Source: Oceanobacillus damuensis
GTDB taxonomy: Bacteria; Bacillota; Bacilli; Bacillales; Amphibacillaceae
Reading direction: 5' to 3'
DNA: 64,000 nucleotides
Assembly (NCBI RefSeq): GCF_001618145.1
Contig: NZ_LQNF01000004.1
Location: 1-64,000 of the forward strand
This document shows positions 1,512 through 28,925 of this stretch, piece after piece. The notes under the pieces were generated by a model. The model saw nothing but the letters and a program-made list of their open reading frames with translations. It was not told where the DNA came from and searched no databases. A program made the translations under genes and the position numbers. Each line of letters starts with the position of its first letter. The stretch's first letter is position 1.

Positions 1512-1590
1512 AGGTACATAATAATACGTGTGGACACATGTTTGGAAAGTATCATTTTGCAATTTGCCTGCTATGATGGGGGAGTTATGT

Positions 1591-1767
1591 GTGAAACGTA
1601 ATTTAACTTATATACTGATCGGATTAAGTTTGGTCATTATATTAATCGGAATCAGCTTGGATTTTTATTGGAGCGGGATTGTTTCCTGGGGACTGGCAAT
1701 TGTCCTGTTATTGTTTGCAGCGTACTATTCCAAATATATTCCTAATGAAAAGAAGGGCAAAAAATAA
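1591..1767 (+). CDS. Small two-helix membrane protein
   Basis: The 58-residue hydrophobic protein has two predicted membrane segments (about residues 7-23 and 28-45) separated by a short turn around DFYWSG, and a lysine-rich C-terminal tail ending KKGKK. I chose the GTG at 1591 because it sits seven bases after a strong GGGGGAG site; a longer reading from 1528 has no ribosome site. A shared terminator follows directly. The family is not one I can name; such proteins are common in Bacillaceae. A sigma-B-like promoter upstream suggests stress induction. Confidence 0.7.
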   Translation: MKRNLTYILIGLSLVIILIGISLDFYWSGIVSWGLAIVLLLFAAYYSKYIPNEKKGKK

Positions 1768-1806
1768 AAAACGGAGAAACTGCCTAAGACAGTTACTCCG
1801 TTTTTT
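1767..1806. terminator. Bidirectional terminator
   Basis: AAAACGGAGAAACTG pairs with CAGTTACTCCGTTTT over 14 of 15 positions around a short loop, with A and T runs on the two sides. It separates the converging small membrane protein gene and the YqcI/YcgG gene. Confidence 0.85.
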
Positions 1807-1808
1807 AT

Positions 1809-2540
1809 TTAATGTGGATGAAATGGACATTTACCTTCAATCGGCTTAACATCATCTCCGATAAAGAATTGCTTCCATTCGCGATGATCCTTGTCCCCGT
1901 AATGGCTGATATTGGGATGCTTCGGCAAGCCATCCCATTTTTCCACTCTTTCCCTGACCTTTTCACGTGACATGACCCCGTTTTTCTCCGTTCCTTTTAA
2001 GCCTTCAAAGATTCTCCTCGGTTGAAACCCGATGACAAGGCTGTTACCTAAGTCTCTTGTTTTCCTTTGTTTATAGGCAGGAGCATTTCCGAAAGCAAAA
2101 TAAGGCTCTTTCGCAAAGCAAAAATTCCATAAATAATGATCCGGATCTTTCGGATAATCCGATGGCCACTCGTATTGATCATTATCATGCAGGTATTGAA
2201 GAACATTCCAGAAATATTCCCGGTAATACTCCAAGGATTTTTCTTCCTTTTCAGGTTCGACAAATAGAAAGAAACCGTGACGAACGATCTTTTCCTGATT
2301 ATCGAACAATCTATTAAAGTCCTCGAGCATCAATGGAAGGTTACTCCAGTCATCGTGTGAAATATAACCATACCTTAGCTCTCCTCTTTTTTGACCAGAC
2401 ATTCCAAAATAGCATGGGAAAGTTTTATTGGTTACGACATTCACAAAGTTGCTGTATTCCTCATTGACCCATTCGGGCAGTAAATCTTGGTTGTTTTCCA
2501 TATCCTCTTTCGTAAGTAAATAAGCTGCTGTCTTATTCAT
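1809..2540 (-). CDS. YqcI/YcgG family protein (possible haem-dependent guanidine N-hydroxylase)
   Basis: The 243-residue soluble protein has the two family signatures: FPC at residues 41-43 (in TFPCYFG) and CPF at 238-240 near the C-terminus (GKCPFHPH). This is the YqcI/YcgG family. Its characterised relatives include GntA, which N-hydroxylates a guanidino group in guanitoxin biosynthesis using haem. The exact substrate here is unknown; L-arginine is a plausible guess. The gene diverges from a DDAH-type hydrolase that also acts on guanidines, and both have sigma-B-like promoters in their shared 146-base gap. The ATG at 2540 follows GGAGG. Family assignment is firm, the reaction is inferred. 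Confidence 0.85.
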   Translation of the reverse strand: MNKTAAYLLTKEDMENNQDLLPEWVNEEYSNFVNVVTNKTFPCYFGMSGQKRGELRYGYISHDDWSNLPLMLEDFNRLFDNQEKIVRHGFFLFVEPEKEEKSLEYYREYFWNVLQYLHDNDQYEWPSDYPKDPDHYLWNFCFAKEPYFAFGNAPAYKQRKTRDLGNSLVIGFQPRRIFEGLKGTEKNGVMSREKVRERVEKWDGLPKHPNISHYGDKDHREWKQFFIGDDVKPIEGKCPFHPH

Positions 2541-2589
2541 ATATTTTCCTCCACGTTGGCTTTTCTTTTAATTCCTATATTAGTTAAAA

Positions 2590-2614
2590 TTACCCGCAGT
2601 GGATTTTTTCAAAC
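2590..2614 (-). promoter_or_regulatory. Candidate sigma-B promoter for the YqcI/YcgG gene
   Basis: Read on the minus strand: GTTTGA, 13 bases, GGGTAA. Five of six -35 positions match GTTTAA and the -10 is GGGTAA. It lies 50-74 bases upstream of the ATG at 2540 and points away from the similar promoter at 2629-2653. Confidence 0.6.
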
Positions 2615-2628
2615 TAATGCGCAATAAT

Positions 2629-2653
2629 GTTTATAAAATGTTATATAGGGTAA
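2629..2653 (+). promoter_or_regulatory. Candidate sigma-B promoter for the DDAH-family gene
   Basis: GTTTAT (2629-2634), 13 bases, GGGTAA (2648-2653): five of six -35 matches and a good -10. It lies about 35 bases upstream of the start at 2687, leaving room for a short leader and the GGAGG site at 2674. Confidence 0.65.
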
Positions 2654-2686
2654 ACTCATTTAGATTATGTATTGGAGGACAAGTAT

Positions 2687-3547
2687 ATGAACACTGCCAT
2701 ACAAAAGGAAATTACTCCTAGAGTTAATTGCCGGAATGAATATGATCCACTGAAGCAAGTCATTGTTGTTCCCCCGCATTATATGAAAATAAAAGAAGTA
2801 ATCAATGTGACACAACGGCATTATTTAAATGAAAATATCAATATAGAAAAAGCAGTGGAACAGCATAACCATCTTATACATACGCTTCAATCGGAAGGTT
2901 CACATGTAATATCCTTAGAGGCCAAGAAACAGCTGAATGAGCAGGTTTTCACACGGGATATCGGTTTTACGATTGGCGATAGATTTTTTGTATCATTCAT
3001 GAAAAAAGATATTCGCAGGCAGGAAGAAAGTGTGTTGACCGATTGGTTAGAGAACAAACAGATTCCATATTATAAATTTGCCACGCCCTCTATAGAAGGT
3101 GGAGATGTTCTCGTTGATAACAATAAGGTATGGATTGGCCAAAGCGATCGAACCTCACCTACCGCAATTGACCTTCTTGAAAAAGAGCTGCCAGACCATA
3201 CAGTGACACCGATTTTTATGAGGAAGGATATTCTGCATCTTGATTGCATATTCAATGTCATCAGTGAAGACACTGCATTAATCTATTCTCCCGCAATGGA
3301 TGAGGGTTCATATAAGCTATTGAAAGCTTCCTATAATCTGATAGAAGTGACAGAAGATGAGCAATTCCAAATGGGGCCGAACGTCCTTCCAATCGGGAAC
3401 AAGAAACTGATTAGTTTACCAGAAAACAAACGCTTAAATCACGAATTGACACAAGCAGGATTTACAGTAATTGAAGTTCCTTTTTCAGAAATCATAAAGT
3501 CAGGCGGCTCTTACCGCTGCTGCACCCTGCCCTTGATCAGAGATTAG
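2687..3547 (+). CDS. Dimethylarginine dimethylaminohydrolase (DDAH)-family guanidine hydrolase
   Basis: The 286-residue protein belongs to the pentein (guanidine-modifying) superfamily. Visible marks are FTRDIGFTIGD, the EGGDVLV segment, HLDCIFNVI carrying the catalytic His, and SGGSYRCCTLPL near the end, where the first Cys (about residue 278) is the expected nucleophile. DDAH cleaves N-omega-substituted arginines to citrulline plus an amine; related enzymes are arginine deiminases. It starts at ATG 2687 after GGAGG, since a TTG at 2672 overlaps that site. It diverges from a YqcI/YcgG gene, which could feed it a hydroxylated guanidine (inference). A hairpin terminator follows. Confidence 0.85.
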   Translation: MNTAIQKEITPRVNCRNEYDPLKQVIVVPPHYMKIKEVINVTQRHYLNENINIEKAVEQHNHLIHTLQSEGSHVISLEAKKQLNEQVFTRDIGFTIGDRFFVSFMKKDIRRQEESVLTDWLENKQIPYYKFATPSIEGGDVLVDNNKVWIGQSDRTSPTAIDLLEKELPDHTVTPIFMRKDILHLDCIFNVISEDTALIYSPAMDEGSYKLLKASYNLIEVTEDEQFQMGPNVLPIGNKKLISLPENKRLNHELTQAGFTVIEVPFSEIIKSGGSYRCCTLPLIRD

Positions 3548-3614: not shown

Positions 3615-3650
3615 AAGCATTAGCCGACTGTGGTCAGCTAATGCTTGTTT
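3615..3650. terminator. Hairpin between the converging DDAH and malL genes
   Basis: AAGCATTAGC pairs with GCTAATGCTT, and the inner CGACTG/TGGTCA bases extend the stem to about 14 pairs around a four-base loop. GTTTAAAT follows on the plus strand. It overlaps the malL stop codon. Confidence 0.7.
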
Positions 3651-5337
3651 AAATACCTTTATATACTCTTGCTTCATATGGTTTTAATGTAAATGAACGA
3701 GCATTGTCGCTTTCATCCACTTCATTCATATAGTTTCCTATCATCAGCTCTTGTGCTTCAAACTCAACATTCTCGGGCAGATGGAAGTGGACTGCTTCCT
3801 TACTGAAGTTCGTTATAACCAGTAACTTCTCGTTTTCCAAGGAACGCATGTATGCATAAATTTTATCATGTTCGGGCAATAACAATTGGTAGTCACCATA
3901 GACAATAATTGAATGCTGTTTCCGCAACTGAATTAATCTGCGATAATAATGATAAATAGAATTCTCATCTTCAACAGCTTGCTTCGCATTAATCTCTCTA
4001 TAGTTCGGATTCACTTTTATCCATGGTTTTCCAGTCGTAAATCCTGCAGAAGTACTTTCATCCCATTGAAACGGAGTTCTGGCATTATCTCTTCCCTTTA
4101 CATAAATAGACTCCATGACTCTCTCATGGTCTTCATTACCTTCCATCACTTTCTCACGATAAAGATTACGTATTTCAATATCCTGATAATCTTCAATAGA
4201 TTCGAAGCGAATATTGGTCATCCCAATTTCTTCTCCCTGGTAAATATATGGAGTGCCTTGGAGCATATGGAGAAAGGTTCCCAGCATTTTCGCCGACTCC
4301 ACACGAAACTCCTTATCATCTCCAAATCTGGAAACAATTCGAGGCTGATCATGATTGTTCAAGTATAGGCTATTCCAGCCGATATCGTGTAAACCGGCTT
4401 GCCATTTTGTTATATTCTCTTTTAGGTCTGTCAGTGCAAGTGGCTTCAAATCCCACTTCCCATTGTTTCCGGAATCCAGATCCATATGTTCAAACGTAAA
4501 GACCATCTGCAATTCCTGCCTTGTGTGATCTGTATATCTCTTTGCTTCTTCCACATCAACACCTGGCATTTCGCCAACAGTCATCACATCATATTTTGAA
4601 AGAACTTCCTTGTTCATTTCCTGCAGAAATTCATGGATTCGCGGACCATTCCTGAATAATTTACTTCCGGATACATATCTTTCCCCTGCTTTTTCAGGAC
4701 CGTCGGGCAATCCAGGTACTTTAGAGATAAAATTAATGACATCCATACGGAAACCATCGATGCCTTTGTCCAGCCACCATTTCATCATTTTATAAATTTC
4801 CTGCCGGAGTTGTGGGTTTTCCCAGTTCAAATCCGGTTGCTTTTTACTGAATACATGCAAATAGTATTCATCTGTATGGTCATCATATTCCCAAGCAGAA
4901 CCACCAAATGAAGACTTCCAGTTATTAGGCTCCCTGCCATTTTTGCCTTCACGCCAAATATAGTAATCCCTATAAGGGTTGTCTTTGGACTTTCTGGCTT
5001 CCCTAAACCATTCATGTTCATCAGAGGAATGATTTACGACCAGATCCATAATTAATTTCATTCCACGTCTATGCGCTTGTTCGAGCAATTCTTCCCAATC
5101 GCCCATCGTTCCAAAGTCATCCATAATGGCATAATAATCTGATATATCATAGCCGTTATCATCATTTGGGGATTCATATACCGGAGATAGCCAAATAACG
5201 TCTATACCCAATTCTTTTAAGTAATCCAGCTTTTCGATAATCCCCTGAATATCTCCAATTCCATCCCCGTTGCTGTCATTGAAGCTTCGGGGATAAATTT
5301 GGTAAACCACACTCTCTTTCCACCAGGCTTTTTCCAT
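3649..5337 (-). CDS. malL: Oligo-1,6-glucosidase (GH13 alpha-glucosidase)
   Basis: The 562-residue cytoplasmic GH13 enzyme matches Bacillus MalL/oligo-1,6-glucosidase along its length. The catalytic triad motifs are GFRMDVINF (nucleophile Asp), TVGEMPG (acid/base Glu) and NNHDQPR (Asp). It should release glucose from isomalto- and malto-oligosaccharides. I chose ATG 5337 (MEKAWW) because GGGAGG lies eight bases upstream; an in-frame extension to 5370 lacks a site. It is the last gene of the treP-treA-treR-malL run, 50 bases after treR, so it is probably induced with trehalose. It is clearly distinct from treA upstream, whose motifs are of the phosphotrehalase type. Confidence 0.9.
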   Translation of the reverse strand: MEKAWWKESVVYQIYPRSFNDSNGDGIGDIQGIIEKLDYLKELGIDVIWLSPVYESPNDDNGYDISDYYAIMDDFGTMGDWEELLEQAHRRGMKLIMDLVVNHSSDEHEWFREARKSKDNPYRDYYIWREGKNGREPNNWKSSFGGSAWEYDDHTDEYYLHVFSKKQPDLNWENPQLRQEIYKMMKWWLDKGIDGFRMDVINFISKVPGLPDGPEKAGERYVSGSKLFRNGPRIHEFLQEMNKEVLSKYDVMTVGEMPGVDVEEAKRYTDHTRQELQMVFTFEHMDLDSGNNGKWDLKPLALTDLKENITKWQAGLHDIGWNSLYLNNHDQPRIVSRFGDDKEFRVESAKMLGTFLHMLQGTPYIYQGEEIGMTNIRFESIEDYQDIEIRNLYREKVMEGNEDHERVMESIYVKGRDNARTPFQWDESTSAGFTTGKPWIKVNPNYREINAKQAVEDENSIYHYYRRLIQLRKQHSIIVYGDYQLLLPEHDKIYAYMRSLENEKLLVITNFSKEAVHFHLPENVEFEAQELMIGNYMNEVDESDNARSFTLKPYEARVYKGI

Positions 5338-5387
5338 CAAAATACCTCCCATATGAAGAACACTGCTCACTAAAAGTAGCGGTAGTT

Positions 5388-6104
5388 TTATTTCTTCACT
5401 CTTCTGGCGAAGTCAACAAACCGGAATTTGTCCGGTCTGTGTCTCGATTCGGTGAATTGAAACAAACTGGCATCATCCAAATAAACCTGACTTCTGATTA
5501 CCACCACATTTGAAAATCCTTCCAAATCCAATAACTCCCGGTCTTCTTCCGTTGGTTCTTCCACAACTATTTCTTTTTGGGCAAAACCAATCACAAGACC
5601 CAAATTATTTTCGATATGCTCATAAATGGATTGCCCGCAAATTTCTTCGGAGAGCAGCGGCACATACATTTCATTGAAATAATCTTTATCCAATATTATT
5701 TTTTCACCGGATATTTCCCTGATCCGTTCAACGGTCCATACAGAATCGGATGGATCTATTCTGAGAATTTTTGCAATATCATTATCTGCTTCCAGATAGT
5801 CGAGTGTATGAACGATTGTCCTGGTTTCCAACTGTAGTTTTTCTGCCAGTTCTGTATAGCTTTCAATACCAGATACCGGAAACGAAAACTTATGGATATC
5901 GAGCACGACGGACCCTTTGCCGCGGACTTTTTGTATATATCCATTCTGCGACAAAAGGTTCAGTGCTTTTCTGATTGTTTCCCTCGACGTATGATAGTGA
6001 GATGTTAGCTCATTCTCTGATGGCAGCATACTAGATGGCGGCCACACGTTGGACTGTATCTGTTTTACCAAATCCTCATATATGGTCAAATATTTCTTTT
6101 GCAT
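5388..6104 (-). CDS. treR: Trehalose operon repressor TreR (GntR family)
   Basis: The 238-residue regulator has an N-terminal winged helix (LPSENELTSHYHTSRETIRKAL region, about residues 25-50) and a C-terminal UTRA effector domain ending FRFVDFARR. Bacillus subtilis TreR has the same length and closely similar ends; it binds trehalose-6-phosphate and then leaves its operator. I prefer the ATG at 6104, six bases after TGAGGT, over the ATG at 6110 that touches that site. It follows treA by 12 bases, so it is co-transcribed. A TreR-like palindrome sits at the treP promoter. Confidence 0.92.
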   Translation of the reverse strand: MQKKYLTIYEDLVKQIQSNVWPPSSMLPSENELTSHYHTSRETIRKALNLLSQNGYIQKVRGKGSVVLDIHKFSFPVSGIESYTELAEKLQLETRTIVHTLDYLEADNDIAKILRIDPSDSVWTVERIREISGEKIILDKDYFNEMYVPLLSEEICGQSIYEHIENNLGLVIGFAQKEIVVEEPTEEDRELLDLEGFSNVVVIRSQVYLDDASLFQFTESRHRPDKFRFVDFARRVKK

Positions 6105-6116
6105 CTTCATACCTCA

Positions 6117-7778
6117 TTATTTCACATAATAGACAATGGATTCGTAAGGTCTTAAGTGTAATTGCTCCAACGTTTCAGGAGAATCAGGGTAGTTGGACAA
6201 CAGGATTTCAGGATTGATGATATTTTTCTCCAGCTGTAGATCAACCGTCACTTCTTCACCATAGAAATTATTGATAACAATCAACTTTTCCCCGTTCCAG
6301 TTTCTCGTATATGCAAAGATTTGAGGATCATCTTCAAAAAGTAATTGATAGTCCCCATAGGTAATAATATCATATTTTTTACGTAATTCGATTAACTGCT
6401 GATAGTGATAAAAGATGGAATCGGGCTCATTTACCATCTTTTCTGCATTAATTTCAGGATAGTTATCTGCAGTTGCAATCCAAGGTGTTCCAGTTGTAAA
6501 TCCAGCATGTTCTTCATTTGACCATTGCATTGGTGTACGTGCATTGTCACGGGATTTTTGCTGCAGGATACCAATGATTTCTTCCTCTGTTTTTCCTTCA
6601 TGCTGTAATGCTTTATAGGCATTCAATGATTCTACGTCGCGATATTCTTCAATGGATGAAAAGTTTGGATTTGTCATTCCAATTTCCTCACCCTGATAAA
6701 TATATGGTGTACCCTTCATCATATGAATCGTTGTTGCAAGCATTTTTGCTGATTCGGAATGATAATTTTGATCATCGCCGAAACGGGATACTGCACGCGG
6801 CTGATCATGATTACACCAGAACAGTGCGTTCCAGCCATCCCCTTCATGCATGCCCACCTGCCAGTCGGAAAGAATTCTCTTCAACTCCACAAAGTCAAAC
6901 GGCGCTTTTGTCCATTTCTCACCGTTTGGGTAATCGACTTTCAGATGATGAAACTGGAATGTCATTGCAAGTTCCTGACTTTCCGGCCTTGTATATAAAA
7001 TGCAATTTTCCAGGGTGGTAGAAGACATTTCGCCAACTGTGAGCATATTGTGTTTTGAAAAAACTTCCTGATTCATTTCATGTAAATATTCATGGATACG
7101 GGGGCCATCTGTGTAAAACTTACGGCCGTCCCCGCTGTCATCATTTGGGAAATCCTGATTTTTAGAAATAAGGTTGATGACATCCAGCCTGAAACCATCA
7201 ATCCCCTTTTCTGCCCAGAAACGCATCATTTCAAATAGTTTTTCACGCAAATCTTCATTTTCCCAGTTTAAATCTGCCTGGGTCCGATCAAATAGATGGA
7301 GATAATATTGGTCTGTTTTCTCATCGAATTGCCATGCGGAACCACCGAATTTCGATTGCCAGTTATTCGGCTCTTCTTCGCCCTCGGCATCTTTCCAAAT
7401 ATAAAAATCACGGAATTCATTGTCTCTTGAAGATGCCGCCTGTTTGAACCATTCATGCTCCGTGGAAGTGTGGTTAATCACAAGGTCCATGATGAGTTTC
7501 ATATCACGCTTGTGTGTTTCATCCAATAATTCCTGAAAATCCTCCATCGTGCCATATGCCGGTTCGATGGAATAATAGTCGCTGATATCATAGCCATTAT
7601 CTTTTTGAGGGGACTGATATACCGGTGTCAACCAAATAACGTCGACACCAAGTTTCTTAATATAATCCAATTTTGAGATGATCCCTTGGATATCACCTGT
7701 TCCACTGCCTGTTGTATCGTGAAAACTTTTTGGGTAAATTTGATATACTACTGATTTTTTCCACCATGCTTCACTCAT
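6117..7778 (-). CDS. treA: Trehalose-6-phosphate hydrolase (phospho-alpha-(1,1)-glucosidase)
   Basis: The 553-residue GH13 enzyme splits cytoplasmic trehalose-6-phosphate into glucose and glucose-6-phosphate. It resembles B. subtilis TreA over its length, with segments such as QADLNWEN, LISKNQDFPND and GEMSSTT. Catalytic motifs are GFRLDVINL, TVGEMSS and CNHDQPR. The gene lies 30 bases downstream of treP and just before treR, which is the classical trehalose operon order. ATG 7778 follows AAGGAG. The name treC is used in other species. Confidence 0.93.
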   Translation of the reverse strand: MSEAWWKKSVVYQIYPKSFHDTTGSGTGDIQGIISKLDYIKKLGVDVIWLTPVYQSPQKDNGYDISDYYSIEPAYGTMEDFQELLDETHKRDMKLIMDLVINHTSTEHEWFKQAASSRDNEFRDFYIWKDAEGEEEPNNWQSKFGGSAWQFDEKTDQYYLHLFDRTQADLNWENEDLREKLFEMMRFWAEKGIDGFRLDVINLISKNQDFPNDDSGDGRKFYTDGPRIHEYLHEMNQEVFSKHNMLTVGEMSSTTLENCILYTRPESQELAMTFQFHHLKVDYPNGEKWTKAPFDFVELKRILSDWQVGMHEGDGWNALFWCNHDQPRAVSRFGDDQNYHSESAKMLATTIHMMKGTPYIYQGEEIGMTNPNFSSIEEYRDVESLNAYKALQHEGKTEEEIIGILQQKSRDNARTPMQWSNEEHAGFTTGTPWIATADNYPEINAEKMVNEPDSIFYHYQQLIELRKKYDIITYGDYQLLFEDDPQIFAYTRNWNGEKLIVINNFYGEEVTVDLQLEKNIINPEILLSNYPDSPETLEQLHLRPYESIVYYVK

Positions 7779-7808
7779 GTTTTCACTCCTTCATCTAGTT
7801 GTTGTGTA

Positions 7809-9752
7809 TTATTTTATTTTGCGTTTTGCAATAATAAACGTAATGATAAATGGTACTGCGATAACGATTAACATTCCCAGGAAGAAGGATACCATGCCGC
7901 TATCGATAGATAAAAATGCCGGAATACCGCCAACTCCGATGGATGAAGCCTGTACGTTAGCAACGGTGATAAAGGCTCCCGCAATTGCAGTACCGATAAG
8001 CGCTGCAAAGAATGGATATCTATATTGTAAGTTGACCCCGAACATTGCCGGCTCCGTGACGCCCAGCCAAGCGGAAATACCGGAAGTACCAGCCAAGCCT
8101 TTCAGTTTTTCATCTTTGGCTGCCAAGAAAATTGCAAATACTGCAGAACCTTGAGCAATATTAGATAGTGCAACGATAGGCCATAAGAATGTCGTTCCCG
8201 TACTTCCAATTAATTGTAAATCAACAGCAAGGAATGTATGGTGCATCCCTGTTATAACCAATGGTGCATAAAGTGAACCATAGATCAGTCCACCGATGAT
8301 TGGTGCTGCTTGGAAAATGGATACTAAACCATCTGTTATCCAGTTACCGATTGTAAATGTAACTGGTCCGATCAGAATAAATGCAAGAAAACCTGTAACC
8401 AATAATGCAATTGGCGCAACTACCAATAGCTGCAGGGAATCAATCACTCGTTTTTTCAGCCAAATTTCAATTTTTGCCAATACCCATGCCGCTACTAATA
8501 CAGGCAATACTTGCCCCTGATAGCCCATCATGTTTACTTCGAGCCCAAATAGATTCCAAGTAGGCGCATTCCCTTCAACTGCAGCCAGAGCAAATTCACT
8601 GGCTGGCATTAACGACGGGTGTACGAGTATCAAACCGAGTACAATACCGAGTAACGGATTACCACCGAACCGTTTTACTGCCGACCAGCCAATCAATGCC
8701 GGCAGGAAGGTAAAGGCCGTATTGGCAATGACGTTAATCATATCAGCTACGCCCGCCCATGACGGATACATTTCGATAATTGATTCGTCCGTAAATATCG
8801 GGTTTACTAATATATTATTAAGCCCTAACAGCAAACCTGCTGTAACAATCGCCGGTAAAATCGGAATAAAAATATCTGCCAGTGTCTTAATCGCTCGCTG
8901 AAGTGCATTCTGTTTTTTGCCTCCCGCAGCTTTTACGTCATCTTTTGAAGCTTCTTCTATTCCCGTTTCGTGAACCATTGCTTTGTAAACCTTATCGACG
9001 GTCCCTTGTCCGATAACGACTTGATATTGACCATTCGCCGAGAAGGTTCCTTTGACAACTTTCAAGTTTTCCAATGCATCTTTATCGACAATGTCTTCGT
9101 CGACAAGCGCAAAGCGAAGTCGGGTTACACAGTGGGTTGCGGCATCAATGTTTTCCAGACCGCCAACAGCGGCAACAATCTGCTCTGCTTCCTCACTGTA
9201 TTCCATGCCTTGAGGTTTTTCCTTATTTCCTTTATCTTGCGTTGTCTGATTTTCAGCTGTTTCCTCTTCCTTCAGAGCCAGCCGTAATAAATTTGATTCT
9301 CCTGCAATTACAGTGTCATCACTTGTTTTCTCTATGGAACTTAGTACATCTCCATTTGTGAGTATGACCGGTGTAATATGGCTGGCAGCCTTCTCTTTGA
9401 TCAGTTGTAAGTCAAACGTTACTAAACGATCGCCAACTTTTACTCGTTCTCCTTGTTTGACATGCAGCTCAAAGCCTTCACCTTCCATGTTTACGGTTTC
9501 GAGACCAATATGAATCAATACTTCCACACCGTTCTCGCTTTTAAGCCCAACTGCATGTTTTGTCGGGAAGGTCAATGTAACCTCTCCATCGATTGGTGAA
9601 ACTACTTCCCCGTCTGTCGGCTCTATTGCAATGCCGTCTCCCATCATTTTTCCTGAGAATGTTGGATCCGGCACATTCTCAAGCGGTGTGACTTTACCTG
9701 TCAGTGGTGCGTAGAGCAGTACTTCGTTTGTTCCTGCATCTTGATTTGCCAT
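7809..9752 (-). CDS. treP: Trehalose-specific PTS enzyme, IIA-IIB-IIC fusion
   Basis: This 647-residue PTS permease imports trehalose and phosphorylates it to trehalose-6-phosphate. An N-terminal glucose-type IIA domain (about residues 10-150; active-site His in VLIHIGLETV) comes first. A IIB domain follows (about 185-260; phosphorylated Cys in ATHCVTRLRF). The C-terminal half is the IIC membrane domain with about ten helices. B. subtilis TreP lacks IIA and borrows one, and fused glucose-family enzymes often carry IIA at the C-terminus, so the A-B-C order is notable. ATG 9752 follows GGGGAGG; an ATG at 9791 has no site. Promoter, operator and cre lie upstream. Confidence 0.92.
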   Translation of the reverse strand: MANQDAGTNEVLLYAPLTGKVTPLENVPDPTFSGKMMGDGIAIEPTDGEVVSPIDGEVTLTFPTKHAVGLKSENGVEVLIHIGLETVNMEGEGFELHVKQGERVKVGDRLVTFDLQLIKEKAASHITPVILTNGDVLSSIEKTSDDTVIAGESNLLRLALKEEETAENQTTQDKGNKEKPQGMEYSEEAEQIVAAVGGLENIDAATHCVTRLRFALVDEDIVDKDALENLKVVKGTFSANGQYQVVIGQGTVDKVYKAMVHETGIEEASKDDVKAAGGKKQNALQRAIKTLADIFIPILPAIVTAGLLLGLNNILVNPIFTDESIIEMYPSWAGVADMINVIANTAFTFLPALIGWSAVKRFGGNPLLGIVLGLILVHPSLMPASEFALAAVEGNAPTWNLFGLEVNMMGYQGQVLPVLVAAWVLAKIEIWLKKRVIDSLQLLVVAPIALLVTGFLAFILIGPVTFTIGNWITDGLVSIFQAAPIIGGLIYGSLYAPLVITGMHHTFLAVDLQLIGSTGTTFLWPIVALSNIAQGSAVFAIFLAAKDEKLKGLAGTSGISAWLGVTEPAMFGVNLQYRYPFFAALIGTAIAGAFITVANVQASSIGVGGIPAFLSIDSGMVSFFLGMLIVIAVPFIITFIIAKRKIK

Positions 9753-9795
9753 CGGTAAACCTCCCCATATAATTTGAATATCTATCATCATTTTG

Positions 9796-20863: not shown

Positions 20864-20900
20864 CCAAAAAAAGACTTATCCCGATAAGAGACAAGTCTTT
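20864..20900 (-). terminator. Terminator of the cold-shock gene
   Basis: On the minus strand AAAGACTTGTC pairs with GATAAGTCTTT, followed by seven T residues. Confidence 0.85.
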
Positions 20901-20914
20901 ATAATTATTATATA

Positions 20915-21112
20915 TTACAGGCGAGTTACGTTAGCAGCCTGTGGTCCACGGTTACCTTCAACGATTTCAAATTCAACTTCTTGACCTTCTTCAAGCGTTT
21001 TGAAACCTTCAGCCTGGATTGCTGAGAAGTGTACGAATACGTCATCTCCATCTTCGCGCTCGATAAAACCGAAACCTTTTTCTGCATTAAACCATTTTAC
21101 TTTACCAGTCAT
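20915..21112 (-). CDS. Cold-shock protein (CspA/CspB family)
   Basis: The 65-residue single cold-shock domain is a small beta-barrel RNA/DNA-binding protein that melts mRNA structure in the cold and in stationary phase. RNP1 is KGFGFIE and RNP2 is VFVHF. It resembles the CspB/CspD proteins of Bacillus; I cannot decide which paralogue. ATG 21112 follows AAGGAGGT. The predicted promoter lies about 120 bases upstream, leaving the long leader typical of cold-inducible csp genes. A good terminator follows. Confidence 0.95.
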
Positions 21113-21228
21113 TTAAATGACCTCCTTATACAATATCGTGCAAAGTAATTGAATCATAAATACTTTCCACCATCTTGAACAAGAGATCGTAAAGTATTAT
21201 TCAACTTCAATTTCCTTTTGCTAGTTTA

Positions 21229-28654: not shown

Positions 28655-28925
28655 TTGTTAGCAACCGCTGTTTGGGCACAAAAAAATCCTCCATCCGAAA
28701 AGGGACCGAGGTCTGGTGGTACCACCCTTGTTTGCAGGAGATATTATCCCTTGCACACTTTACTTGATAACGGTTATGAACCGCGCACATCTTACGGCAT
28801 GATGCCTTTCCGATGGCGAACTCAGGAGGCAGGTTCCAATTGATGTCTTTGGAAACTCACAGCAAACATTTCCTCTCTTTGAAAGACAGACAAATTGTAC
28901 TAATCCTCGTCAATGTTTCGTATAT
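28655..28925 (-). promoter_or_regulatory. T-box riboswitch leader of proS
   Basis: On the minus strand the antiterminator carries AGGGTGGTACCACC, and the competing terminator CCTCGGTCC-TTTTC-GGATGGAGG ends in seven T residues (about 28681-28712). Upstream is a stem I domain starting near AAAGAGAGG. A GAACCTG stretch there offers CCT (28831-28833) as the proline specifier codon. Uncharged tRNA-Pro would favour read-through into proS. Confidence 0.9.

Follow-up and report, generated by a model that had tools for sequence, protein, structure and literature searches.

A divergent yqcI-hydrolase gene pair with sigma-B-like promoters in Oceanobacillus damuensis, and its possible role in stress-linked arginine modification

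Organization of the locus

The window discussed here is a 64-kb stretch of Oceanobacillus damuensis DNA that runs from the first base of its contig onward, in a genome of 4.1 Mb. Two divergent genes near its beginning (Table 1) encode, respectively, a YqcI/YcgG family protein and a GME (guanidino-modifying) hydrolase. The original prediction had these open reading frames diverging from a 146-base gap holding two back-to-back sigma-B-like promoters, and each of these elements was recovered at the predicted position. A loose sigma-B pattern has ten matches on both strands of the window, two of which are the promoters of the pair. A third, 1.1 kb away, faces a small neighbouring ORF (69 aa, membrane-like), which it precedes by about 46 bases and which has no match in Pfam or NCBIfam. 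A terminator-like inverted repeat with a T run, discerned by eye, separates the small ORF from the end of yqcI.

Table 1. Features of the yqcI-hydrolase locus, in window coordinates
Feature	Position	Strand	Remarks
Third sigma-B-like match, GTTTGTTATAATAACACTGGGTAA	1488-1511	+	
69-aa membrane-like ORF	1558-1767		
Terminator-like inverted repeat and T run	1769-1805		by eye
yqcI, YqcI/YcgG family (PF08892), predicted thiolate-heme guanidine N-hydroxylase, clade A	1809-2540	-	243 aa
Gap between the divergent genes	2541-2686		146 bases
Sigma-B-like promoter of yqcI, GTTTGA-13-GGGTAA, GTTTGAAAAAATCCACTGCGGGTAA	2614-2590	-	49 bases before YqcI start
Sigma-B-like promoter of hydrolase gene, GTTTAT-13-GGGTAA, GTTTATAAAATGTTATATAGGGTAA	2629-2653	+	33 bases before ATG 2687
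Likely ribosome-binding site TGGAGGA of hydrolase gene	2673-2679	+	read in the sequence
GME hydrolase gene (DDAH/ADI type)	2687-3547	+	286 aa from ATG behind GGAGG
Hydrolase ORF, alternative start TTG	2672-3547	+	

The host genome contains a single PF08892 match, a single PF19420 match and a SigB gene, whose product scores over the curated cut-off (459 bits vs 315). The pair has the combination by which we recognise candidate members of a SigB regulon, i.e., both promoter boxes, a spacer of 12-15 bases, and a SigB gene in the same genome. Control by a guanidine riboswitch was considered and rejected: no Rfam guanidine riboswitch scores over its gathering threshold in the window or in 11 loci of clade B (defined below).

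The YqcI protein and its clade

PF08892 was surveyed in 159 genomes of the window's family and in 398 genomes sampled across the class, 99 of which have a match. The locus set was built from 84 family places with flanks of up to 6 kb (six fragmentary places left out), 80 class-sample places with flanks of up to 3 kb (seven fragmentary places left out), 17 loci from a further search (3 of clade A and 14 of clade B, with 1.5-kb flanks) and 16 named loci; after removal of 15 superseded or duplicate loci and addition of the window, it comprises 196 loci with 193 distinct protein stretches. Clade A consists of the 82 loci with at least 54% identity to the YqcI protein of the window, and "clade B" is a label for the 114 loci below 54%, not a demonstrated single branch. 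Two named proteins near to that of the window, from Oceanobacillus massiliensis and O. rekensis, are 86% and 85% identical to it.

The protein matches PF08892 with E = 3.4e-71 (239.9 bits vs gathering 27) and has the FPC motif at C43 and the CPF motif at C238. It misses the equivalog cut-off of GntA (NF041366, 55 bits vs 145), and its identification as GntA was rejected. A close comparison is AglA of the argolaphos pathway (PDB 9ub3 and others), which shares with it the sandwich fold and the heme-ligand cysteine and is 31-32% identical to it over the structural alignment; the window protein keeps F152, R166, Q177, R179, F182 and R200 of AglA. An older view of the conserved cysteine as a peptide anchor (PMC2922099, excerpt) has given way to that of a heme ligand, the part it plays in AglA. 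The two proteins differ in setting, the AglA gene being part of a phosphonate cluster and the window gene having a sigma-B-type promoter, and also in substrate-relevant positions: AglA, whose substrate is AMPn-Arg and which shows essentially no activity towards free arginine, has K196 and K225 where the window protein has R and E.

Pocket positions C44, F152, R166, Q177, R179 and F182 do not vary in any of the 82 clade-A rows, and AglA positions 196 and 225 are R and E in 81 out of 81 readable ones. The K196R, K225E and double mutants of AglA hydroxylate free L-Arg at N-delta, and the K196H, K196M and T220R mutants at N-omega instead (PMC12866846, excerpt), so that regiochemistry is not to be read with certainty from two residues. 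The clade-A pocket is thus naturally set in the way that AglA engineers set theirs for free arginine. It fits a guanidine N-hydroxylase of free arginine, and its residues would favour N-delta-hydroxylation at least as much as N-omega; we consider the two products of the predicted step about equally likely. The proposal of an arginine-hydroxylating YqcI therefore stands as far as the predicted suitability of the pocket for free arginine is concerned, and its N-omega site is not singled out, since the residues lean to N-delta.

Some other members of the family belong to known pathways. In the D-cycloserine pathway, a heme protein of the YqcI/YcgG family, DcsA, is said to act with a "hydroxyarginase", DcsB; unlike the window pair, this is an antibiotic pathway, and DcsB is arginase-like, not a GME cysteine hydrolase. 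The activity of DcsA is described as unconfirmed in vitro (PMC11177257, excerpt). ChmN of the chalkophomycin pathway, likened to the window protein by description only, is also a YqcI/YcgG heme enzyme; it converts free L-Arg to N-delta-hydroxy- and dihydroxyarginine and is proposed to work with a SznF-like enzyme in a natural-product cluster (PMC11177257, excerpt). Six bacterial members are counted as characterised, all in natural-product pathways (PMC12866846, excerpt), and a stress role for the family would be new. No activity of any Bacilli YqcI is reported in the titles and abstracts among the YqcI/YcgG and PF08892/IPR014988/COG3403 matches listed in the open-licence literature. The two B. 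subtilis genes that gave the family its name are of unknown role, and a housekeeping role is proposed for the family here. A SpoIIID list includes B. subtilis ycgG, and so does a longer list of sporulation genes (PMC3097244, excerpt), which, judged by its members, we infer to be that of SigE; this would agree with another YqcI branch having a role of a different kind. A rough sigma-E pattern gave 0 of 114 and 0 of 24 when sigma-E control of clade B was considered, a result that carries no information either way.

The hydrolase

The second gene product has the alpha/beta propeller fold of GME proteins and matches PF19420 (DDAH_eukar, 5.4e-36, 124.8 bits vs gathering 23) and PF02274 (6.3e-29). 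It falls under every NCBIfam cut-off for dimethylargininase (NF045658, 56.7/450; NF045659, 101.8/300; NF045660, 73.9/340), arginine deiminase (TIGR01078 equivalog, 82 bits vs 489.1) and ArgZ/AgrE (NF052232 equivalog domain, 90.4 vs 450), and the nearest structures to its model are ArgZ and an ADI. What had been called a DDAH-type hydrolase thus keeps its family resemblance to PF19420 and loses the more specific identity, "DDAH" being only a family-level label for a protein that misses all DDAH cut-offs.

E137, H184 and C278 are invariant, as are arginines 90, 110 and 155. From the motifs of such enzymes, we take the first three to be the Glu-His-Cys triad. Such a triad is typical of GME cysteine hydrolases (PMC11659421, excerpt), and together with the invariant arginines it would suit a guanidine substrate whose amino-acid end is free. 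An ArgZ-like dihydrolase was rejected, Asp91 being present where ArgZ has Asn71, with Asp in all GME rows aligned. The catalytic columns are alike in 19 DDAH rows linked to yqcI (window included) and 29 unlinked rows, the short or frame-split L107 and L038 being left out; nothing in the columns examined therefore marks a specialised hydrolase, and the notion of a dedicated "linked" DDAH was abandoned.

Sigma-B-like motifs and SigB across relatives

SigB promoters have the -35 box GTTT and the -10 box GGGWA. A spacing of 13-15 is given for them in PMC7824861 (excerpt). We looked for GTTT-N2-N12-15-GGGWA within 260 bases around the predicted start (-230 to +30); none of the motif and SigB counts that follow is corrected for kinship. 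The motif was found upstream of 59 of the 82 clade-A yqcI genes, with 1.04 expected from 50 shuffles per window, and upstream of 1 of the 114 clade-B genes, with 1.44 expected from shuffles. Twenty-three clade-A loci are devoid of it, and six of the 59 matches, near -220 in genus g36, may be spurious, which would leave 53/82. Spacers are 14 bases long at 34 loci, 13 at 24 and 15 at one. When the box letters were permuted (79 permutations), a mean of 4.5 of the 82 clade-A loci matched, and the top permutations, with 37 and 31, are register shifts. An earlier pass over family and named loci, made with ORF starts, gave 34/43 for clade A, 0/52 for clade B, 0/4 for intermediate rows and 13/858 for background ORFs. 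Across the 81 rows of the clade-A tree, the motif switches between present and absent at least 10 times.

In the class sample, SigB is encoded in all 43 clade-A genomes vs 25 of the 50 whose YqcI genes all lie outside clade A (Fisher p 5.6e-9, with no correction for kinship; six genomes with YqcI fragments only were left out). The family set cannot test this link, because SigB is near-universal there (157 of 159 genomes). Taken with the 59/82 motifs, the class-sample counts support the predicted sigma-B-type control of clade-A YqcI.

The hydrolase side is more varied. An own-strand sigma-B-like motif precedes 14 of 25 linked clade-A hydrolases: all five deiminases have it, as do the six divergent DDAHs that group with the window's in the tree, and three more hydrolases complete the count. 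It is present at none of the 15 ADI-like partners of clade B and at 1 of 30 unlinked DDAH loci, the best-scoring 30 of 111 family genomes with a match. In family f18, the motif is present at two of the ten paired hydrolases and absent at eight, which weakens the claim of joint control in that family.

Both families of the window pair are represented, by name, in B. subtilis, as ycgG and ykgA, the latter presumably a DDAH-like gene. The gene list of a SigB-regulon paper includes ykgA (PMC7824861, excerpt), which is termed a general stress protein elsewhere (PMC5717166, excerpt); sigma-B control of a DDAH-like gene is thus not new in itself.

Recurrent pairing of yqcI with guanidine hydrolases

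Adjacency in other genomes had been made one test of the original prediction, and a GME hydrolase was found near clade-A yqcI at 25 of 82 loci, the other 57 having none within the flanks covered (1.5-6 kb). If a genome of about 3.6 Mb has one or two such genes and about 7 kb of it is examined, we estimate that fewer than one pairing would be expected by chance. No other neighbour family is shared as widely within clade A: GME hydrolases occur under 14 of 35 genus labels, or 13 of 34 when "Oceanobacillus" and g1 are counted as one (L062 and L063 are contigs of g1 genomes); a broad ABC-ATPase cluster follows with 11 labels, and the rest have at most 4. The YqcI tree, a quick one with many weak forks, requires at least 11 changes between linked and unlinked; on the DDAH tree, which has weak forks too, the linked genes fall into two regions and have unlinked neighbours in both.

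The arrangement seen in the window, a divergent DDAH-like gene, accounts for 17 clade-A pairs: in the window, two named Oceanobacillus, and g1, g45 and g46 of the window's family, as well as in g69, g127, g133 and g166 of f18. At three loci, the DDAH-like gene is downstream on the same strand (directly in Pontibacillus and g55, 1.4 kb off in g67), and at five, in Mesobacillus and its kin, the partner is a convergent arginine deiminase. One of these deiminases, L066, was scanned and scores 541.8 bits vs the equivalog cut-off of 489.1; the other four group with it in the tree. All five (L066, L067, L068, L211, L233) have a well-conserved sigma-B-like motif 131-132 bases before the predicted start. 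Clade B is paired with an ADI-like hydrolase of its own, about 313 aa long, at 15 of 114 loci (14 convergent, 1 downstream). YqcI is thus linked to guanidine hydrolases of three kinds, and the divergent YqcI/DDAH pair, though found repeatedly as foreseen, is one case of a wider pairing that takes in a deiminase and a third, ADI-like family. No description of a yqcI-hydrolase pair appears in titles and abstracts among the matches listed in the open-licence literature.

Two observations concern individual loci. In L107 (G067), the DDAH-like gene divergent from yqcI (about 4891-5619) is split over two frames (L030 covers the same place); G067 has a second, unlinked DDAH besides the frame-split one. 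A set of genes recurrent in clade B (L079, L082, L083, L084, L087, L090, L092, L093, L100) consists of a LysE-type exporter, YqcI, an amino-acid permease and/or ADI-like hydrolase, and a gene that is CotF-like by reading; it resembles a system for exporting a modified amino acid.

A possible arginine N-oxidation and hydrolysis module

Our explanation starts from computed families, folds, intact active sites, the promoter motif and the recurrent pairing; from there on we infer activity, substrate, order of steps, products, reductase and benefit under stress. The pair may oxidise and then split the nitrogen-rich end of arginine under stress, and the repeated pairing of both kinds of enzymes in relatives points to an undescribed stress pathway. 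The clade-A YqcI, as a thiolate-heme enzyme of the AglA/ChmN kind, would N-hydroxylate the guanidine of free L-arginine, or of a close free amino acid, with electrons supplied by a general reductase. The GME hydrolase, DDAH-like here and in f18 and arginine deiminase in Mesobacillus, would then attack the guanidine carbon, giving citrulline and hydroxylamine if the hydroxyl is on N-omega, or N-delta-hydroxycitrulline and ammonia if it is on N-delta; alternatively, the hydrolase may act on the same arginine pool as YqcI. No DDAH or ADI acting on hydroxyarginine is mentioned in titles and abstracts among the matches listed. Many DDAH-like hydrolases live without YqcI (PF19420 is found in 111 and PF08892 in 72 of the 159 family genomes), which counts against this explanation. 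Our tentative choice, to which we give slightly less than an even chance, is to see in the pair one version of a module for arginine N-oxidation and hydrolysis under sigma-B control. Both the pairing and the link to sigma-B are stronger than sequence alone could show, and the chemistry is a well-aimed hypothesis; if it is true, the bacterial stress response would gain a new metabolism of N-oxidised arginine.

The same enzymes could serve another end if N-hydroxyarginine were itself the wanted product, be it a signal, an antimetabolite or a source of NO/HNO, and the hydrolase removed the excess or protected the cell. Within the family and named set, a LysE-type exporter gene lies directly upstream of clade-B yqcI on the same strand at 24 of 56 loci and an amino-acid permease gene is nearby at 20 of 56, which makes export of a modified amino acid plausible in clade B, and N-hydroxyarginines do occur in natural products (PMC12866846, excerpt). 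In clade A, however, the exporter family is found anywhere in the stretch at just 3 of 42 loci of that set and never directly upstream, and joint sigma-B control equally suits a pathway, so that we hold this alternative to be unlikely. Another possible source of substrate is methylated arginines from protein turnover under stress, which the DDAH-like enzyme would hydrolyse directly and YqcI would oxidise. The resemblance of the hydrolase to PF19420 agrees with this, as does the use of N-methylarginine by SznF, another guanidine N-hydroxylase (PMC11177257, excerpt), but the hydrolase stays under the DDAH equivalog cut-offs and the YqcI of Mesobacillus is paired with an arginine deiminase, the substrate of which is arginine; we regard this alternative as decidedly improbable.

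It is also conceivable, if quite unlikely, that two unrelated general-stress genes merely share one sigma-B control region. We know of no yqcI beside B. subtilis ykgA, and this, the listing of ykgA as a SigB-regulon and general stress gene, and the 57 of 82 clade-A loci that are unpaired would all agree with such an accident. The convergent and tandem pairs, however, share no control region and the partners are GME proteins of three types; moreover, clade B pairs too, with no motif at its partners, and the motif is present at 1 of the 30 best-scoring unlinked DDAHs.

The preferred module of arginine oxidation and hydrolysis may be extended to a more general, and rather doubtful, proposal: that Bacilli have a general-stress, NOS-independent arginine N-oxidation, in which a thiolate-heme enzyme that is neither P450 nor NOS and recruitable GME hydrolases make a reactive-nitrogen or hydroxamate-like stress metabolite. 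Hydroxyarginine would be formed from free arginine on sigma-B command, and GME hydrolases would release hydroxylamine from it or form N-delta-hydroxycitrulline. The host genome has no match to NOS (PF02898), which is found in 49 of 159 family genomes. Some of these (G075, G079, G080, G013, G157) also have clade-A YqcI, so there is no exclusion between the two, and YqcI as a replacement of NOS was rejected. In g36 genomes (L146, L148, L153, L154, L158, L159, L160, L161), a NOS gene lies near a clade-A-like yqcI, at about 4 kb in seven of the eight and about 9 kb in the eighth.

Other features of the window

Beside the pair, at 3649-9791 (-), are two glucosidase-like genes, a GntR-type regulator and a PTS transporter, named by reading, which together look like a trehalose-type gene set. 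An Rfam match to the cspA thermoregulator, a family known mainly from enterobacteria, lies at 20868-21208 (-) with 85.6 bits vs 78, overlying a 65-aa cold-shock-like ORF (20915-21112). A T-box leader is found by Rfam at 28698-28922 (-), with 116 bits.
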